From: Treponema primitia ZAS-2
GTDB lineage: Bacteria > Spirochaetota > Spirochaetia > Treponematales > Breznakiellaceae
DNA: 64,000 nucleotides
Direction: 5' to 3'
Assembly (NCBI RefSeq): GCF_000214375.1
Contig: NC_015578.1
Coordinates: forward strand, 1,054,001 to 1,118,000
Position 1 is the stretch's first letter; each line of letters begins with the position of its first letter. Positions 10,956 to 33,043 of the stretch are shown here, in pieces. The position numbers were made by a program, and so were the translations under genes. Under the pieces are notes generated by a model. It had not been told where the DNA came from. It saw only the letters and a program-made list of their open reading frames with translations, and did not search any database.

Positions 10956-10975
10956 TTATATAGGCCACTATTTTC

Positions 10976-11004
10976 TTGACCCCTGTAAATAAGGGTGATA
11001 TAAT
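10976..11004 (+). promoter_or_regulatory. Strong sigma-70-like promoter of the HDCR operon
   Basis: -35 TTGACC (10976-10981) and a perfect -10 TATAAT (10999-11004) are separated by 17 bases. It points into the Cys-type fdhF about 77 bases downstream. Confidence 0.7.
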
Positions 11005-11013
11005 AACTTATAT

Positions 11014-11035
11014 TATAGATATATATTTATCTATA
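11014..11035. promoter_or_regulatory. Candidate operator at the HDCR operon start
   Basis: An inverted repeat TATAGATA (11014-11021), six-base spacer, TATCTATA (11028-11035) covers the first transcribed bases after the -10 box. A repressor bound here would block transcription. In T. primitia the Cys-type fdhF is reported to be repressed by selenium, so this is a reasonable candidate site; the assignment is inference. Confidence 0.4.
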
Positions 11036-11081
11036 TATTTATCCACACATTGGTCTATCCATATACCAGGAGAGGGGTTTT

Positions 11082-17558: not shown

Positions 17559-18356
17559 TTAGAATACCCCGATACAAGCCGCCCCAATGGCGCCTGCGTA
17601 GATTCCCTGGGGTAAAAATTGCACATCAACCTTGAGTACCTCTGAAAGCGCCCTGCGGATACCGGAGCTTTCCGCAAGTCCTCCGGTTAATACTACCGGA
17701 GGTTTGAGGCCGACCCTGGCAGCAAGGCTGCTTATCTTTACTGCCATGGACAGCGCCACTCCTCCTACAATTTCTTCCCGGCTATGCCCTTTTGCCAGGA
17801 GCCCGATGATTTCCGATTCCGCAAATACCGCGCAGGTGCTATTTAATCGAATGATTTTTCCGGCGGCAAGTAAAGTGTCCAGGAGGTTTATGTCAGCATT
17901 GAACCTTTCTAAGACCATCTGCATAAAGCGGCCCGTACCAGCGGCACATTTGTCGTTCATCTGAAAAGACGTCACCTTGCCGTTTTCCACTGCAATGACC
18001 TTGCAGTCCTGGCCGCCTATATCGATAACCGTCCTGACCCCCGGCATCAGGTATTCTGCGCCCCGTGCGTGGGCGCTTATTTCGGTAACAGCCTTAGTCC
18101 TTTCGGTCACCATATCCCGGCCGTACCCGGTGGCGATAACCGGTATATTGACAGCCAGGTCATTATCAGCTGCGTTAAGGCCAACATCGGCGGCGTTGCC
18201 CTTAAGGTTCGCCAAAACATGAGAAGCGCTTTCCTGCAAATTCCACCCCGTGGGCTGCAGAGAATAAGCAGCAACCCCATGCCGGCTTAGTAAAACTCCC
18301 TTGCATAGTGTGGAACCGCAGTCTATGCCGATGGAGTATTCAGCTTTCCCGTCCAT
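17559..18356 (-). CDS. YjiL/HgdC-type activator ATPase with [4Fe-4S] cluster
   Basis: The 265-residue protein is an ASKHA-fold ATPase of the 2-hydroxyacyl-CoA dehydratase activator family. Visible are the phosphate loop SIGIDCGSTLCKGVL, the IDIGGQDCK motif and the cluster cysteines in NDKCAAGTGRF and NSTCAVFAESE. These proteins use ATP to send low-potential electrons to a partner. The partner is the gene just upstream with no gap between them. Together they match the DCCP reductase/DCCP pair. Confidence 0.88.
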   Translation of the reverse strand: MDGKAEYSIGIDCGSTLCKGVLLSRHGVAAYSLQPTGWNLQESASHVLANLKGNAADVGLNAADNDLAVNIPVIATGYGRDMVTERTKAVTEISAHARGAEYLMPGVRTVIDIGGQDCKVIAVENGKVTSFQMNDKCAAGTGRFMQMVLERFNADINLLDTLLAAGKIIRLNSTCAVFAESEIIGLLAKGHSREEIVGGVALSMAVKISSLAARVGLKPPVVLTGGLAESSGIRRALSEVLKVDVQFLPQGIYAGAIGAACIGVF

Positions 18357-19511
18357 TTATAGCATCTCAATAAAGGCGGATATACGGGTTTTAAGCTGCT
18401 CCGTATCTCCGGAGGAATAATCGGTCTCCAGGCTCATAAAAGGTATGTTACGGGTCTTGAGAAATTCCCCAATAGTATAGGATTCTATAGCGTAGGTATG
18501 ACAGGATTGCAGCACCATTTCCAGCACCCCGTCGGCCTTGAATTGATCGCAGAGCCGCCCCAGCAGTTCAAGCCGGTTTGGGTTGGGACTCATCACGCTG
18601 CATCCTATATTGAGATAATAGTCACAGAGGGCATCGTAGGGTTCGGCGGACTCGTCAATCTGCCGATCAAACTGTTTTGCTCCGGTACAGTTTTCATAGG
18701 CTACTACCACTGCCCCGCTTTCTTCAATGACCCGGGTGAATTTTTCTGTGGCCCCTCCTATGGGGCAGCCGGTAACAATGATGCGTTTCGCCGTGGCGGC
18801 AACAGGATGCTTTCCGTTTTGGTATTCATCGGTAATCTTGCTGATGGTCTCTTTTAATTCCTGTACTTTTTTTTCGTGATCGAATTTGAACTGAACGCCA
18901 AATAGTATCTGAAGCTGCTGTAAGCCGGAAAGGGGAGGGGGGTTCATCACCGATAGTTCATACACGTTTTTTAAAAGGGCACGTTCCTTGTTCCTTTGCT
19001 GTATAGCCTGGCGTAGTTTTTCTGTCGTAATGGTTACGCCGAATTTTTCTTCCACTCTGCTCTTTAAGCGTTTAATTTCTTCCATCCAGGTCGCCCGGGA
19101 AGCGGGCCTGTCCTGATTATGGGGAAGATCCATCACATGGACATCCTTGATCTTGCCCAGGAGTTCGTACATTTTTGTTTTCCCGTCACAAGTAGTCTCG
19201 CCAACCACCAGATCAGAAAAATACATATAGGGGCATTTATCGGCGGCGGCGAATCCGTAGGAAGCTTTAATAAGGGGGCAGAGGTTGCGGGGAAGGACCT
19301 TTTCCGCCTCCCCTATGGTTTCATCGCTGGTAGAACAAAGGCCCACAGGTATGAGGCCGACGGCCAAAAAAAGTTCTATCGGCACATAGGTACAAAAGGT
19401 TCCAACCACTCCCTTGCCCTGTTCCTTCAGGATTTTCATGGCGATAAAGCCCTGTTTACGGGCATCGGAAAAGGATTCAAAAATCTCAGGCAGCTCTCTT
19501 TGTTCAATCAT
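18357..19511 (-). CDS. Double-cubane-cluster protein (YjiM/HgdB family)
   Basis: The 384-residue protein (ATG at 19511, after AGGAGG) belongs to the BcrC/HgdB superfamily. Conserved cysteines are in VGTFCTYVPIELFLA, LPRNLCPLIKASYG, VGETTCDGKTK, VTGCPIGG and LQSCHTYAIES. A single subunit beside its own activator is the layout of double-cubane-cluster proteins, which reduce small substrates at very low potential. The physiological substrate is unknown. It follows the ABC ATPase gene by 25 bases, so the reductase is co-transcribed with an amino-acid importer. Confidence 0.8.
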   Translation of the reverse strand: MIEQRELPEIFESFSDARKQGFIAMKILKEQGKGVVGTFCTYVPIELFLAVGLIPVGLCSTSDETIGEAEKVLPRNLCPLIKASYGFAAADKCPYMYFSDLVVGETTCDGKTKMYELLGKIKDVHVMDLPHNQDRPASRATWMEEIKRLKSRVEEKFGVTITTEKLRQAIQQRNKERALLKNVYELSVMNPPPLSGLQQLQILFGVQFKFDHEKKVQELKETISKITDEYQNGKHPVAATAKRIIVTGCPIGGATEKFTRVIEESGAVVVAYENCTGAKQFDRQIDESAEPYDALCDYYLNIGCSVMSPNPNRLELLGRLCDQFKADGVLEMVLQSCHTYAIESYTIGEFLKTRNIPFMSLETDYSSGDTEQLKTRISAFIEML

Positions 19512-19536
19512 TGTTTTATTACTCCTCCTATGAATA

Positions 19537-20343
19537 TTATTCCGCATTCACATATTGCAAAAACTGTTGAATACGGGGGTTTTCAGGTTTATCCAATATT
19601 TCTGACGGGCTTCCGTCCGTTGCAATTGCCCCGTCATCCAAAAACAAGACCCGGCTCGCCACTTCTTTTGCGAAACGCACCTCGTGGGTTACCAATATCA
19701 TTGTAGTTCCTTCGAAAGCTAATTTTTTGATAGTGTTAAGCACTTCCCCTACCAGTTCCGGGTCCAATGCAGATGTTGGCTCATCAAACAGCACTACATT
19801 GGGATTTACGGCAAGCGCCCTGGCGATGCCGACTCTTTGCTGCTGACCACCCGATAACTTTGACGGATAAAAATCTTTGCGATCCATTAACCCAACTTTA
19901 TCCAGGAGCTTCAGGGCAATTTCTTCAGCTTCAGCCTTTGGCCTTTTGTGGACAATCATTAACGCTTCCATTATGTTTTGCAGAGCTGTCTTGTTCTTAA
20001 ACAGATTGTAGCTTTGAAATACCATTGATGTATGCTTGCGTAAATCCAGTATTTCCTGTTTTGTGTGTTTTTCCGCATCTATTCTGATATCGCCTATGGT
20101 GATGATACCGCTTGTAGGAATCGTTAAATAATTCAGGCAGCGCAACAAGGTGGATTTACCTGTTCCGGAAGGTCCCATGATTGCCACCACCTGATTTTTG
20201 TATATTTGTAGATTGATGTCCTTTAGCACCTTTGTATGCTCATCAAAATTCTTATACAAATGCTCGGTTACTACCAATGGTTGTGCAGGGGACTTGCCGA
20301 CTAAAGTCGGTCCGACTAAAGTCGGCGTTGCATGTAGCGCCAT
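19537..20343 (-). CDS. Polar amino-acid ABC transporter ATP-binding protein
   Basis: The 268-residue protein has Walker A GPSGTGKST, the signature LSGGQQQRVGIARAL, Walker B VVLFDEPTSALD and the switch His in LVTHEV. It powers import with the permease and binding protein encoded upstream. The first 20 residues (TPTLVGPTLVGKSPAQ among them) are not family sequence: they and the start codon are encoded by a copy of the dispersed repeat at 20289-20340. An RBS-like AGAGGG precedes this ATG. The repeat may have supplied a new start, or the real start may be a TTG further in. Confidence 0.9.
   Translation of the reverse strand: MALHATPTLVGPTLVGKSPAQPLVVTEHLYKNFDEHTKVLKDINLQIYKNQVVAIMGPSGTGKSTLLRCLNYLTIPTSGIITIGDIRIDAEKHTKQEILDLRKHTSMVFQSYNLFKNKTALQNIMEALMIVHKRPKAEAEEIALKLLDKVGLMDRKDFYPSKLSGGQQQRVGIARALAVNPNVVLFDEPTSALDPELVGEVLNTIKKLAFEGTTMILVTHEVRFAKEVASRVLFLDDGAIATDGSPSEILDKPENPRIQQFLQYVNAE
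20289..20340 (-). repeat. Dispersed repeat with two palindromes at the ABC ATPase start
   Basis: Read on the minus strand it starts GCGCTACATGCAAC and holds two copies of CCGACTTTAGTCGG (20312-20325 and 20297-20310), then CAAGTC. It encodes residues 2-17 of the ATPase in frame. Confidence 0.8.
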
Positions 20344-20422: not shown

Positions 20423-21232
20423 TTAGTTGATGTAAATCGTCATATCCTCATACAGATATTTTTTTACGATTCTGCCGCAGGTGCCGTCATCCAGCATTTC
20501 TTGTATTACCTTGTTTACTTCCTCACACAACGCTTTACCCGCATCTGTTTTTTGGAAATAATAGCCTACATTATTCGCAAGCAGTTTTTCATCCAAAATT
20601 CTCAGGGTTTTCCCTGACACGTCCATGTATTGATTTGCGCCTGTAACAGGGCCGCCCATTACATCAAGTCTGCCTAAATCCACATCCGCATAGCCGGTAT
20701 TTAACCCTTCATAAACCACGAGCTCAAAATTGTATTTGCCGGACATATCTTCCAGAATGGTTTCACTTGCCTGACCAGAGGAAACGCCGACTTTTTTACC
20801 CGCCAGGTCATTAAAGGTATTAATTTTTGTATTATCATTTTTTACAGTGAGACACTGTGCATCGCCGTAATATGCTATGGAAGGATAGTATTTTTCGCTT
20901 CTTTCCGCTTTTATAGCAAAACAATTTGCCGCTACATCCGCCCGAAGGGAGGAAAGCTCTCCAAACATGGAATCGAAACTTGCCCGCTTTACCACTACAT
21001 TCCAACCTGTACGCTTTTCGATTTCCGCCCACATCTCCCCATCGATGCCTGTCCACTCGTTGCTCTCTGTTAACAGGCTGTATGGAAGGCCGCCGCCTCC
21101 CGTTACAACCGTAACGGTTCTCGCCGTCGTCGCCGCCGTCCCCGCGGTATTGTTTGTTTTGCCCTGACACCCGGTAATGAATAGTACTACGGTACAGGCA
21201 ATAGCAAAAAAAAGTATTGTTCTTTTTTTCAT
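20423..21232 (-). CDS. Amino-acid-binding lipoprotein (SBP family 3)
   Basis: The 269-residue protein starts at ATG 21232 after GGAGGAG. It has a lipoprotein signal peptide (MKKRTILFF to the lipobox FITGC) and a family 3 solute-binding domain: GLPYSLLTESNEWTGIDGEMW, KRTGW, FNDLAGKKVGVSSGQASE and DGTCGRIVKKYL. Close relatives bind polar amino acids including cystine. The ligand cannot be read from sequence. It precedes the ATPase gene by about 80 bases. Confidence 0.85.
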   Translation of the reverse strand: MKKRTILFFAIACTVVLFITGCQGKTNNTAGTAATTARTVTVVTGGGGLPYSLLTESNEWTGIDGEMWAEIEKRTGWNVVVKRASFDSMFGELSSLRADVAANCFAIKAERSEKYYPSIAYYGDAQCLTVKNDNTKINTFNDLAGKKVGVSSGQASETILEDMSGKYNFELVVYEGLNTGYADVDLGRLDVMGGPVTGANQYMDVSGKTLRILDEKLLANNVGYYFQKTDAGKALCEEVNKVIQEMLDDGTCGRIVKKYLYEDMTIYIN

Positions 21233-21305: not shown

Positions 21306-21971
21306 TTAATAAGCCGCTTGGCATTTCTTTTCCAGATATTTATGTACAAATCCAAACAAAAAGATAATAACCCAATATACCAGCATCACTGCGGCATATA
21401 TCTCAAAATATCGGAAGGAGCGCGCACCTGCCATTCTGGCGGCTCCCATAACATCCGCGACACCCAGCATAAAAGCAAGGGATGATGATTTGATTAGATT
21501 GATCATGTCATTAAAGAGGGGAGGCAAAGCAACCCGGACAGCCTGGGGCAAAATGATTCTTCGCATTAACTGTAAATTTGTCATCCCCAGGGAATATGCG
21601 GCTTCCTTCTGGCCTTCATCAACAGACATTAAGGCAGCCCGTATGCTTTCGGACATAAAAGCTCCTACATTCAGGCTCAGCACAACGGCAACCGCCGTTA
21701 CAGGAACCATATTCCTTATGGTTACGCTGTAAATGGCCAGCCCATAGTAAAAAAAATACAACTGCGCCACAATCGGCGTGCCCCGAATAAGGGAAACGTA
21801 TCCTCGTGTTATGGGATAAAATATCTTTATTTTGTAATATGCGATAACGGCAATGATAACGCCTATGATTAATGCAAAAACCGTTGCCGTTACTGTGATT
21901 TCCAGCGTTACATTTAATTTGGAAAAAATTCTGGGCAGAATTTCAATAAAATAACCTGCATCAAAATTCAT
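21306..21971 (-). CDS. Polar amino-acid ABC transporter permease
   Basis: The 221-residue membrane protein has the HisMQ/GlnP topology, with segments near residues 22-45, 62-85, 90-110 and 185-210. The EAA loop reads EGQKEAAYSLGMTNLQLMRRI. It starts inside the last codons of the upstream UGA-containing small ORF (11-base overlap), which suggests translational coupling. It is the first transporter gene of the five-gene operon. Confidence 0.88.
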   Translation of the reverse strand: MNFDAGYFIEILPRIFSKLNVTLEITVTATVFALIIGVIIAVIAYYKIKIFYPITRGYVSLIRGTPIVAQLYFFYYGLAIYSVTIRNMVPVTAVAVVLSLNVGAFMSESIRAALMSVDEGQKEAAYSLGMTNLQLMRRIILPQAVRVALPPLFNDMINLIKSSSLAFMLGVADVMGAARMAGARSFRYFEIYAAVMLVYWVIIFLFGFVHKYLEKKCQAAY

Positions 21972-22206
21972 AACAATCTCCCGTGGTGGGATCTGTCAAA
22001 AAATAGGGTATTTCATTTATATGGCAGGCGGGGCTTTTCGCCCTGTGTATAATCAAATTCTCCAGTGCGGCAAGCGGTAGGGGCGCCCTGGGGTTAAACT
22101 GGTATTCATTTTTCTTAAAATCTCGGCCGCCCGGGCCTTCAATACCGCCCATTCAGGGTACACCCCTGGGTGAAGCGGCGATCATCAAAACAATACTATG
22201 TTTCAT
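21961..22206 (-). CDS. Small ORF interrupted by in-frame UGA, leader of the amino-acid ABC operon
   Basis: A strong Shine-Dalgarno (AAGGAGCTTGCC) precedes the ATG at 22206. The frame reads MKHSIVLMIAASPRGVP, hits UGA at 22153-22155, and is then immediately followed by ATG and 63 more in-frame codons, ending 11 bases inside the permease gene. Either the UGA is a stop followed by reinitiation (UGAAUG), or it is selenocysteine in an 81-residue protein. About 16 bases after the UGA a small GC-rich hairpin (GGCC, loop CGGGC, GGCC) could serve as a weak SECIS. No CxxU-type redox motif is seen. It may act as a regulatory leader. A reference annotation may list only the part from 22152. Confidence 0.35.
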
Positions 22207-22363
22207 GGCAAGCTCCTTTTTTTGCAGCGAACTGATAAATTTATATGATTTAGACAACTTATCAAGGATAGTACATTGCTGTCAAGCCTCTGGCGAGGTT
22301 TGTATGCTTTTGTTTTGCCAATTTTCAATAATTTGAAACCCGATGGCCCTTTTTGTATGGAAC

Positions 22364-29136: not shown

Positions 29137-29230
29137 TGGCGGAGGCGTGTGAGAATCGAACTCACCAAGGACGTTTCCACCCTTTGACGGATTTGAAGTC
29201 CGCAGCCGCCACCAGGCGACATTCACCTCC
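29137..29230 (-). tRNA. selC: tRNA-Sec (anticodon UCA)
   Basis: The 94-base RNA begins GGAGGTGAATG and ends in an encoded GCCA. The anticodon loop is ACTTCAAAT with anticodon TCA (plus-strand TGA at 29194-29196). It has a long variable arm (AAAGGGTGGAAACGTCCTT) and a T arm GTGAG-TTCGATT-CTCAC. The long acceptor plus T helix and long D stem are typical of tRNA-Sec. A T-rich tract follows it on the minus strand. Confidence 0.95.
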
Positions 29231-30850: not shown

Positions 30851-33043
30851 ATGGCGGTAAAAGAAGTCCAGACCACCTGCGCGTATTGCGGCGCCGGTTG
30901 CCAGCTATTGTTTACGGTAGACCAGGATGTGAACAAGATCCTCGATGTGCATCCCGTTCAAGGCAGAACCAACGAGGGCACGGCGTGCCTGAAGGGCTGG
31001 TACGGCTGGGATTACCTCAACGACCCCCAGATTATTTCTAAAAGGCTCACCAAGCCCATGATGCGCAAGGGCGGCAAAAATAGCCCTCTGGAAGAGGTGG
31101 AATGGGACGAAGCCATTGCCTATACCGCGGGCCGGCTCATGGAAATCAAGGCAAAATACGGCCCCAACTCCATTATGGGCACCGGCTCGGCCCGGGGCTC
31201 GGGCAACGAGTCCAACTATATCATGCAAAAATTCATGCGCGCAGCGGTGGGCACTAACAATGTCGACCACTGCGCGCGTATATGACACGCTCCTTCTGTA
31301 GCGGGTCTACAGTATTCACTAGGTTCAGGCGCTATGACCATGGGAGTGCCTGAAATAGAAGATGCATCTCTCTTATTTGTTTTCGGCTATAACGGCGCCG
31401 ATTCCCACCCCATAGTTGCCCGCCGCATTGTGCGCGCCAAGGAGAAGGGCGCCAAGATAATCTGCGTGGATCCCCGGATTATCGAAACCGCCCGCATTGC
31501 GGATATGCACCTCCAACTGAAAGGCGGCTCAAATCTCCTCTTGGTCAACGCCCTGGCCAATGTCATCCTGGAAGAAGGGCTCTGCGACTATAACTTTATA
31601 GAACAGCACGCCAATGGATTTGACGAGTTTAAGGAAATTGTAAAGAAATACACCCCCGAAAGCGTGGCCGCCCAGACCCAGATTCCCGCTGAGGACATCA
31701 GGGCAGCTGCCCGTATGTATGCCACTAGCGGCCGCTCCATGATCCTCTACGGCATGGGTGTCTGCCAGTTCGGGCAGGCTGTGGATGTGGTCAAGGGCCT
31801 GGCCAACCTGGCTATCATGACCGGCAACCTGGGCCGCCCCTCCACGGGCATTGGCCCGGTGCGGGGCCAGAACAATGTCCAGGGCGCCTGCGATATGGGC
31901 GCCTTGCCCAACGTGTATCCCGGCTACCAAAGCGTTGCCGTCCCGGCGATACAGGAAAAATTCGAAAAAGCCTGGGGTGTCAAACTGTCTGACAAGCCCG
32001 GCATCACCCTGACCGTGGTGCCCCACCATGTGCTGCACGAAAAGGACCCCACCAAGCAAATCCACGCCTATTACATCATGGGTGAAGACCCGGTCCAGTC
32101 CGACCCGGATTCGGCGGAAGTGCGGGAGTCCCTGGAAAAATGCGACTTTGTGGTGATGCAGGACATTTATATGAACAAAACCGGCCAGTACGCCGATGTC
32201 CTGCTGCCGGCCACAGGCTGGTGCGAACATGACTCGGTCTTTTCCTGCTGCGACCGGGGTTTTCAGAAGGCCCGCAAGGTCATTGAGCCCTCAGGGGATG
32301 TGAAGAACGACTGGGAAATCATCAGCTTGATTTCCACCGCCATGGGCTACCCCATGAAATATAACAACACCGTGGAAATCTGGAACGAACTGATCGATCT
32401 TTGCCCCAGCTTTGCCGGCGCCACCGACGAGAAGCTCGAAAAGAACCTCTCCATCCAGTGGCCCTGCCGGGACAAGGGACCGAACGATTTGGGCACAGTC
32501 TACCTGCACAAGGACGGCAAGTTCGCCAATGCCGATGGGAAGGCCAACTTTTTCGCCACCGAATGGCGGCCACCCCAGGAGCTGGAAAACAATGAGTATC
32601 CCCTTACCCTGTGCACGGTCCGCGAAGTGGGCCACTATTCGGTGCGCACCATGACCGGCAACTGCCGGACCCTCCGCAACCTTGAGGACGAGCCAGGCTG
32701 GGTACAGATTTCGGCGCGGGATGCGGAAAAGCTCGGTATAAAACACCAGGAACTTGTCAGGATAAGCTCAAAACGCGGCTCAGTTATTACCCGGGCCAAT
32801 ATTACTTCCCGGGTCAAGAAGGGCGCGGTGTATATGACCTACCAGTGGTGGGTCGGCGCCTGTAACGAACTGACCAACAGCACCCTGGACCCCATCAGCA
32901 AGACCCCGGAATACAAGTACTGCGCCTGCAAGGTGGAAAAACTTCCGGATCAAAAAGCGGCCTGGGACGATGTGAACAAGACCTTGGCGGATTTACGGAA
33001 CAAGATGTTCATCAGCGTAGCACGGGAAGGCGTGTCAGGGTAA
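30851..33043 (+). CDS. fdhF: Formate dehydrogenase catalytic subunit, selenocysteine variant
   Basis: The frame from ATG 30851 meets TGA at 31283-31285 and continues in the same frame to 33043. With UGA as selenocysteine the protein has 730 residues, with Sec145 in HCARI-U-HAPSVAG. It is a close paralogue of the Cys variant at 11082 and shares the cluster motif Cys10, Cys13, Cys17 and Cys46 and the C-terminal LCTVREVGHYS. A SECIS-like hairpin follows the UGA, and selA, selB, selD and tRNA-Sec are nearby. Automated annotation is likely to split it into 30851-31285 and 31334-33043. It is alone in its transcript, with its own promoter and terminator, so it probably replaces the Cys FdhF in the HDCR when selenium is present. 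Confidence 0.95.
31286..31325 (+). promoter_or_regulatory. Bacterial SECIS hairpin
   Basis: CTGTAG (31296-31301) and CTACAG (31307-31312) form a perfect six-base-pair stem around the loop CGGGT. The GGT of the loop lies 19-21 bases after the UGA, the same distance as the GGU of the E. coli fdhF SECIS as I remember it. SelB binding to this hairpin should decode the UGA as Sec. Confidence 0.75.

Follow-up and report, generated by a model that had tools for sequence, protein, structure and literature searches.

A conserved mini-gene of 17 codons, followed by an in-frame UGA, probably reads the selenium supply directly in translation in termite-gut spirochaetes. In Treponema primitia ZAS-2 it precedes an operon for an amino-acid-type ABC transporter and a double-cubane-cluster-containing protein (DCCP), within a window of 64,000 nucleotides (the whole stretch of DNA that was analysed) taken from a genome made of a single 4.06-Mb contig. 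Our preferred reading, to which we assign a probability of roughly 0.55, is that this leader is a selenium sensor whose UGA is read either as selenocysteine (Sec) or as stop, the outcome setting the expression of the next operon. A selenium-sensing leader was one of two functions proposed in a preliminary description of this DNA, and it gained support from homologous leaders with UGA at the same codon in front of fdhF_Cys and of yedE/DCCP, in a frame that is open past the UGA.

Anatomy of the leader and its copies in related genomes

The leader frame of T. primitia (copy F) spans 22206..21961 on the minus strand, as do all its elements described here, and reads MKHSIVLMIAASPRGVP-U-MGGIEGPGGRDFKKNEYQFNPRAPLPLAALENLIIHRAKSPACHINEIPYFLTDPTTGDCYEF-stop. 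A Shine-Dalgarno sequence AAGGAG (22213..22218) lies 6 nt upstream of the start codon of the 17-codon peptide (22156..22206). UGA is codon 18 (22155-22153) and is directly adjoined by an ATG, forming UGAAUG (22155-22150). The 63 open codons that follow, with their stop at 21963-21961, constitute a possible read-through extension (21961..22152) that ends 8 nt beyond the A of the permease ATG (21971) and hence overlaps the permease start. The UGA at codon 18, the adjoining ATG and the 63 codons running into the permease start, all claimed previously, were thus confirmed. Three small hairpins can be drawn on this RNA: a weak one within the leader, upstream of the UGA (CACC-CAGG-GGUG, 22161..22172), whose pairing persists across five sequences, one pair being compensated, and whose AGGGG side could act as an internal Shine-Dalgarno sequence for the AUG after the UGA; a candidate SECIS, GGCC-CGGGC-GGCC (22137-22125), starting 16 nt past the UGA; and UCCC-ACCAC-GGGA (21979..21991), which covers the permease Shine-Dalgarno sequence (fold z -2.0, 6 of 200 shuffles being equally stable). 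Promoter-like sites were seen upstream of the leaders of types a and b described below and weakly upstream of F, and no fitting intrinsic terminator was found at F, a or b leaders.

Leader F matched two loci of the same genus (L013 and L014) at the DNA level, and the pattern GGNGTNCCNTGAATGG (GVP-UGA-MG) recovered further copies. From five distinct sequences we made a leader model, which in 200 genomes of the family gave 7 strong matches at 77-98 bits, including the sequences that had gone into it, all else remaining below 32 bits. One match is F itself, two each lie in G001 and G002 and one each in G003 and G009; these relatives are few, and their genomes are fragmented and partly chimeric. 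Scanning a GTDB-wide contig collection returned the same records, Spirochaetia bacterium MS499-40, -42, -44 and PG1894_190, together with one cyanobacterial match that presumably arose by chance. Homologous leaders are therefore found in three genomes of the same genus, MS499-40, -42 and -44, the copy of a fourth genome being without context. The G009 copy sits at a contig edge, its downstream gene being absent from the contig, and SelB did not exceed the cut-off in this 64%-complete genome. The leader region recurs in inverted orientation at the end of G001 contig 192 (L013:4346-4622), which is probably an amplification chimera.

All 7 strong matches carry UGA, and TGAATGG is invariant. In the six complete copies (6/6), the distance from start to UGA is exactly 51 nt and a GGAG or GGAGG stands 6 nt before the start codon, which is ATG in F, TTG in a1 and a2 and GTG in b1-b3. 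With the first codon taken as Met, the peptides read MKHSIVLMIAASPRGVP in F, LTCVFKDGIVTSLKGVP in a and VTRLFKGGIAASPMGVP in b. Their length is constant despite very different first codons, which is what a translated leader should show, and in several pairs the changes in the upstream peptide fall mostly on third positions (0, 2 and 5 changes at positions 1-3 for copy x versus b3). The conserved part is GVP-UGA-M, followed in the copies by a short hairpin with a G-bearing loop. Searches for known families gave no match for the leader peptide in Pfam or NCBIfam and no credible match for the leader in Rfam. The preliminary description had envisaged relatives that either keep the frame on both sides of the UGA or carry UGC/UGU there: the first was borne out, with UGA in 7/7 strong matches and F/a insertions and deletions that sum to a multiple of three, and the second was never seen, the codon being always UGA. 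Nor did the relatives show any of the features it had named as refuting, whether another stop, a frameshift or the lack of a homologous downstream part.

Copies number one or two per genome and lie in front of selenium genes wherever their context is known. A dispersed repeat element was rejected on this ground, as the copies are not many and not in unrelated places. Pattern matches in G007, G022 and G032 had no leader and were taken as chance, and the weak model matches below 25 bits (G058, G187, G215) lacked the motif when their sequences were read. No convincing UGA leader was found upstream of yedE in other members of the family.

Genes behind and beside the leaders

The transporter operon behind F is encoded on the minus strand. 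Its first gene is an ABC permease of cystine/glutamine type (21306..21971, NCBIfam matches under equivalog cut-offs), followed by the substrate-binding (20423..21232) and ATP-binding (19537..20343) proteins of the same transporter, both assigned in the NCBIfam scan. Then come DCCP, an anaerobic reductase (18357..19547; NF040772, 526 bits, above cut-off), and an acyl-CoA dehydratase activase-type protein (17559..18356; TIGR00241, above cut-off). Divergent from the leader and adjoining it are selA (22409, plus strand) and selB (23895, plus strand); tRNA-Sec lies at 29137-29230 (minus strand) and an fdhF with an in-frame Sec-UGA at 30851-33043. Together they indicate that T. primitia makes Sec, so that the earlier claim of a leader beside selA in a Sec-making genome proved correct. 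A Sec-assisted organometallic (SAO) operon was also considered and rejected, no SaoB, C, L, P, T or X model being among the NCBIfam matches listed for the operon. A 14-bp palindrome, CCGACTTTAGTCGG, occurs 10 times in the window against 0.34 expected (including 17458, 17473, 20297, 20312, 23580 and 26487) and 59 times genome-wide when one mismatch is allowed; several copies lie in frame within genes (selA, a cysteine-desulfurase-like gene, the ABC ATPase) and recall the intragenic palindromic elements of Rickettsia.

In G001 and G002, the leaders a1 and a2 stand upstream of a gene that we take to be DUF3343 (a remnant in G001), then YedE (TIGR04112, above cut-off), DCCP and the activase. In G002 and G003, the leaders b2 and b3 stand upstream of fdhF_Cys (..NNIDHCARICHAAS..), the selenium-free formate dehydrogenase. 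A selB gene is present in G002 and G003 as well, and partly in G001. G002 has it twice, complete on C34 and, on C70, truncated where the contig begins immediately ahead of leader a, which reflects a second copy or a mixed assembly.

No YedE was found in the genome of T. primitia. Its ABC transporter occupies the position that YedE, a selenium transporter, has in the relatives, and on this ground may take up a selenium compound. Transporters accompany DCCP and its activase beside selenium genes (window 17559-19547; L013, L014, L015), in the orders yedE-DCCP-activase (G001, G002), yedE-binding protein-DCCP-activase (G003) and amino-acid-type ABC-DCCP-activase (window). DCCP may act on selenium compounds. 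The leader also ties an amino-acid-type transporter and a double-cubane reductase to selenium, and points to candidate importers in organisms without YedE.

The fdhF_Cys of T. primitia itself (window 10974-11081) has no UGA leader in its short 5' region, which weighs against the sensor and means that selenium must control this gene by another route; its promoter, TTGACC/TATAAT, is much like that of the relatives. A review states that the fdhF genes of this species react to picomolar to nanomolar selenite (PMC6288185). As this review summarizes Matson et al. 2010, less than 50 pM selenite lowers the fdhF_Cys transcript, and in the fdhF_Sec transcript only the part beyond the UGA/SECIS varies with selenium (PMC6288185).

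Reading of the UGA

The leader frame of F, a2, b2 and b3 runs uninterrupted as far as the next gene's start, and the other two frames contain 2-5 stops each. The leader stop falls 1-13 nt past the downstream ATG in these four contexts. When the sequence beyond the conserved block was shuffled with dinucleotides preserved, the frame was open in 9, 23, 7 and 16% of cases, or about 2.6e-4 combined, the true value being weaker because b2 and b3 share ancestry. Between F and a, insertions and deletions of 2, 1 and 6 nt separate the sequences and, in our reading, the frame is restored at DFK and FN. Over the first 15 codons past the UGA, x and b3 differ by 3, 4 and 2 changes at positions 1-3. This lack of third-position bias suggests that the block may be kept as RNA.

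The GC-rich hairpin about 16 bases past the UGA is indeed found where the preliminary description placed it, but it is not remarkable alone: folding around the UGA of F was no better than in shuffles (z +0.7 and -0.3), and 16% of all UGAs in the window are followed by a hairpin that fits an equally loose rule. Conservation in the relatives is what lifts it above chance. Equivalents of the form GGCC-N5-GGYY are possible in copies a, b and x, the loop starting 20-22 nt past the UGA with a G at its second place, and one inner-stem pair is compensated among the five sequences. The loop of F, CGGGC, resembles the CGGGU of the fdhF_Sec SECIS, an element almost unchanged across four genomes; the loops of the other leaders differ from this invariant element. 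As a sign of a SECIS, the conservation of the hairpin among five aligned sequences is suggestive only.

In a less probable explanation, UGA is only a stop and either the nascent peptide (..GVP-UGA) or an RNA fold does the sensing without Sec insertion, UGAAUG serving for termination and reinitiation. It agrees with the invariance of UGAAUG, with the purine-rich AAAGGGG(A)G found 6-9 nt ahead of the AUG in several copies, and with the proline that precedes UGA in every copy. The weak signs of a SECIS count in its favour, as does an alternative fold around the UGA, in which columns 5-10 pair with 38-43; mutually exclusive stems are possible. However, the downstream genes are selenium genes, and UGA is never replaced by another stop in the strong matches. 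The open frame from the UGA to the downstream start argues against it too, though reinitiation at the AUG could explain this as well.

That the leader is a relic, either a remaining piece of the 3' end of yedE that travelled with the locus or a degenerate short element without function, appears improbable. The YedE proteins of the relatives do end in NFG(I/L)AASPxGVPxNGK, with nearly the same codons as the leader (L108, L109, L110; window 22156-22182), and this likeness of GIAASPxGVP down to the codons points to the tail of yedE as the likely origin of the leader. In addition, T. primitia is without the YedE that relatives have at this locus, and a decayed piece, GIAASPKGVP-CGG, lies behind the activase in G002. 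Yet leaders are also present in relatives with an intact yedE, including in front of fdhF_Cys; their Shine-Dalgarno sequence, start position and UGA spacing are kept; each genome has only one or two copies; and the block past the UGA is unlike yedE. The likeness may reflect nothing more than origin. A relic could fit F alone, not the whole set of copies. A genuine 81-residue small selenoprotein with a function of its own, the other proposal of the preliminary description, is very unlikely despite the frame open on both sides of the UGA and the similarity of the ~15 following codons between copies: beyond this block the b2 and b3 peptides are unrelated in sequence and different in length, which makes selection on the protein itself improbable, no third-position bias follows the UGA, no Cys homologue at the UGA position and no family match were found, and a search with the read-through peptide in 99 genomes found only itself.

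A putative selenium switch and its known counterparts

From the anatomy of the leader and its association with selenium genes, both observed, we infer Sec insertion, its coupling to the downstream genes and the sign of the response. In the proposed sensor, ribosomes would initiate on the 17-codon leader and arrive at the UGA. With enough Sec-tRNA(Sec), SelB would use the downstream hairpin as a SECIS, the UGA would be read as Sec and the ribosome would continue to the stop overlapping the start region of the next gene. When selenium is lacking, RF2 would terminate translation at the UGA, perhaps followed by a new start at the AUG next to it, and the downstream leader RNA would stay free of these ribosomes. 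This choice would set the expression of transport and DCCP in T. primitia, and of yedE/DCCP and fdhF_Cys in the relatives.

Within this sensor, the fdhF_Cys context makes the sign 'selenium low = on' rather probable: at high selenium, read-through ribosomes would cross and occlude the downstream ribosome-binding site. Two features typical of positive coupling point the other way for F and a: in F a hairpin masks the permease Shine-Dalgarno sequence, and DUF3343 begins within an ATGA overlap. Selenium would likewise act as an activator if an undecoded UGA caused polarity. We consider it an even bet that the leader is a genus-specific switch, in which one UGA senses Sec-tRNA(Sec) and controls both selenium uptake operons and the selenium-free formate dehydrogenase, as the Sec counterpart of amino-acid attenuation.

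Leader peptides that read a charged tRNA are a known kind of regulator; a Sec/stop UGA as the reading codon, or any published Sec-UGA leader regulator, was not found in the literature searched (an incomplete library). In the trp and his attenuators and in TnaC, what the ribosome does at one particular codon determines operon expression; TnaC, like the spirochaete leader, has its decisive site at Pro-UGA, where it halts. The spirochaete leader shares with them a short translated leader after a promoter and a defined codon that would decide on the downstream operon. It differs in that this codon is a Sec/stop UGA, that no intrinsic terminator was found and that the frame overlaps the downstream start. 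The programmed frameshift of prfB has an early in-frame UGA with AGGGG just upstream, the outcome at the UGA being the signal. The leader likewise has an early in-frame UGA and an upstream AGGGG stretch, but a prfB-like frameshift was rejected, since the frame continues in phase and the codon before the UGA is not a conserved slippery codon (CCC/CCA/CCG). In E. coli, the 5' region of selAB reportedly contains a SECIS-like element that gives control dependent on SelB and Sec-tRNA (Thanbichler and Boeck 2002, as cited in PMC8124441). That element is also a 5' RNA hairpin controlling a selenium operon; it needs no UGA-containing leader frame, whereas the spirochaete leader combines UGA, frame and hairpin, and its targets are uptake and backup genes. 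Finally, selenium represses the genes of selenium-free isoenzymes in Methanococcus through HrsM, a LysR-type repressor whose way of sensing selenium is described there as unknown (PMC11097638). Control of selenium-free isoenzyme genes would be common to both systems, HrsM being a protein repressor and the spirochaete leader a cis-acting element which would sense selenium directly, as the ribosome reads it.
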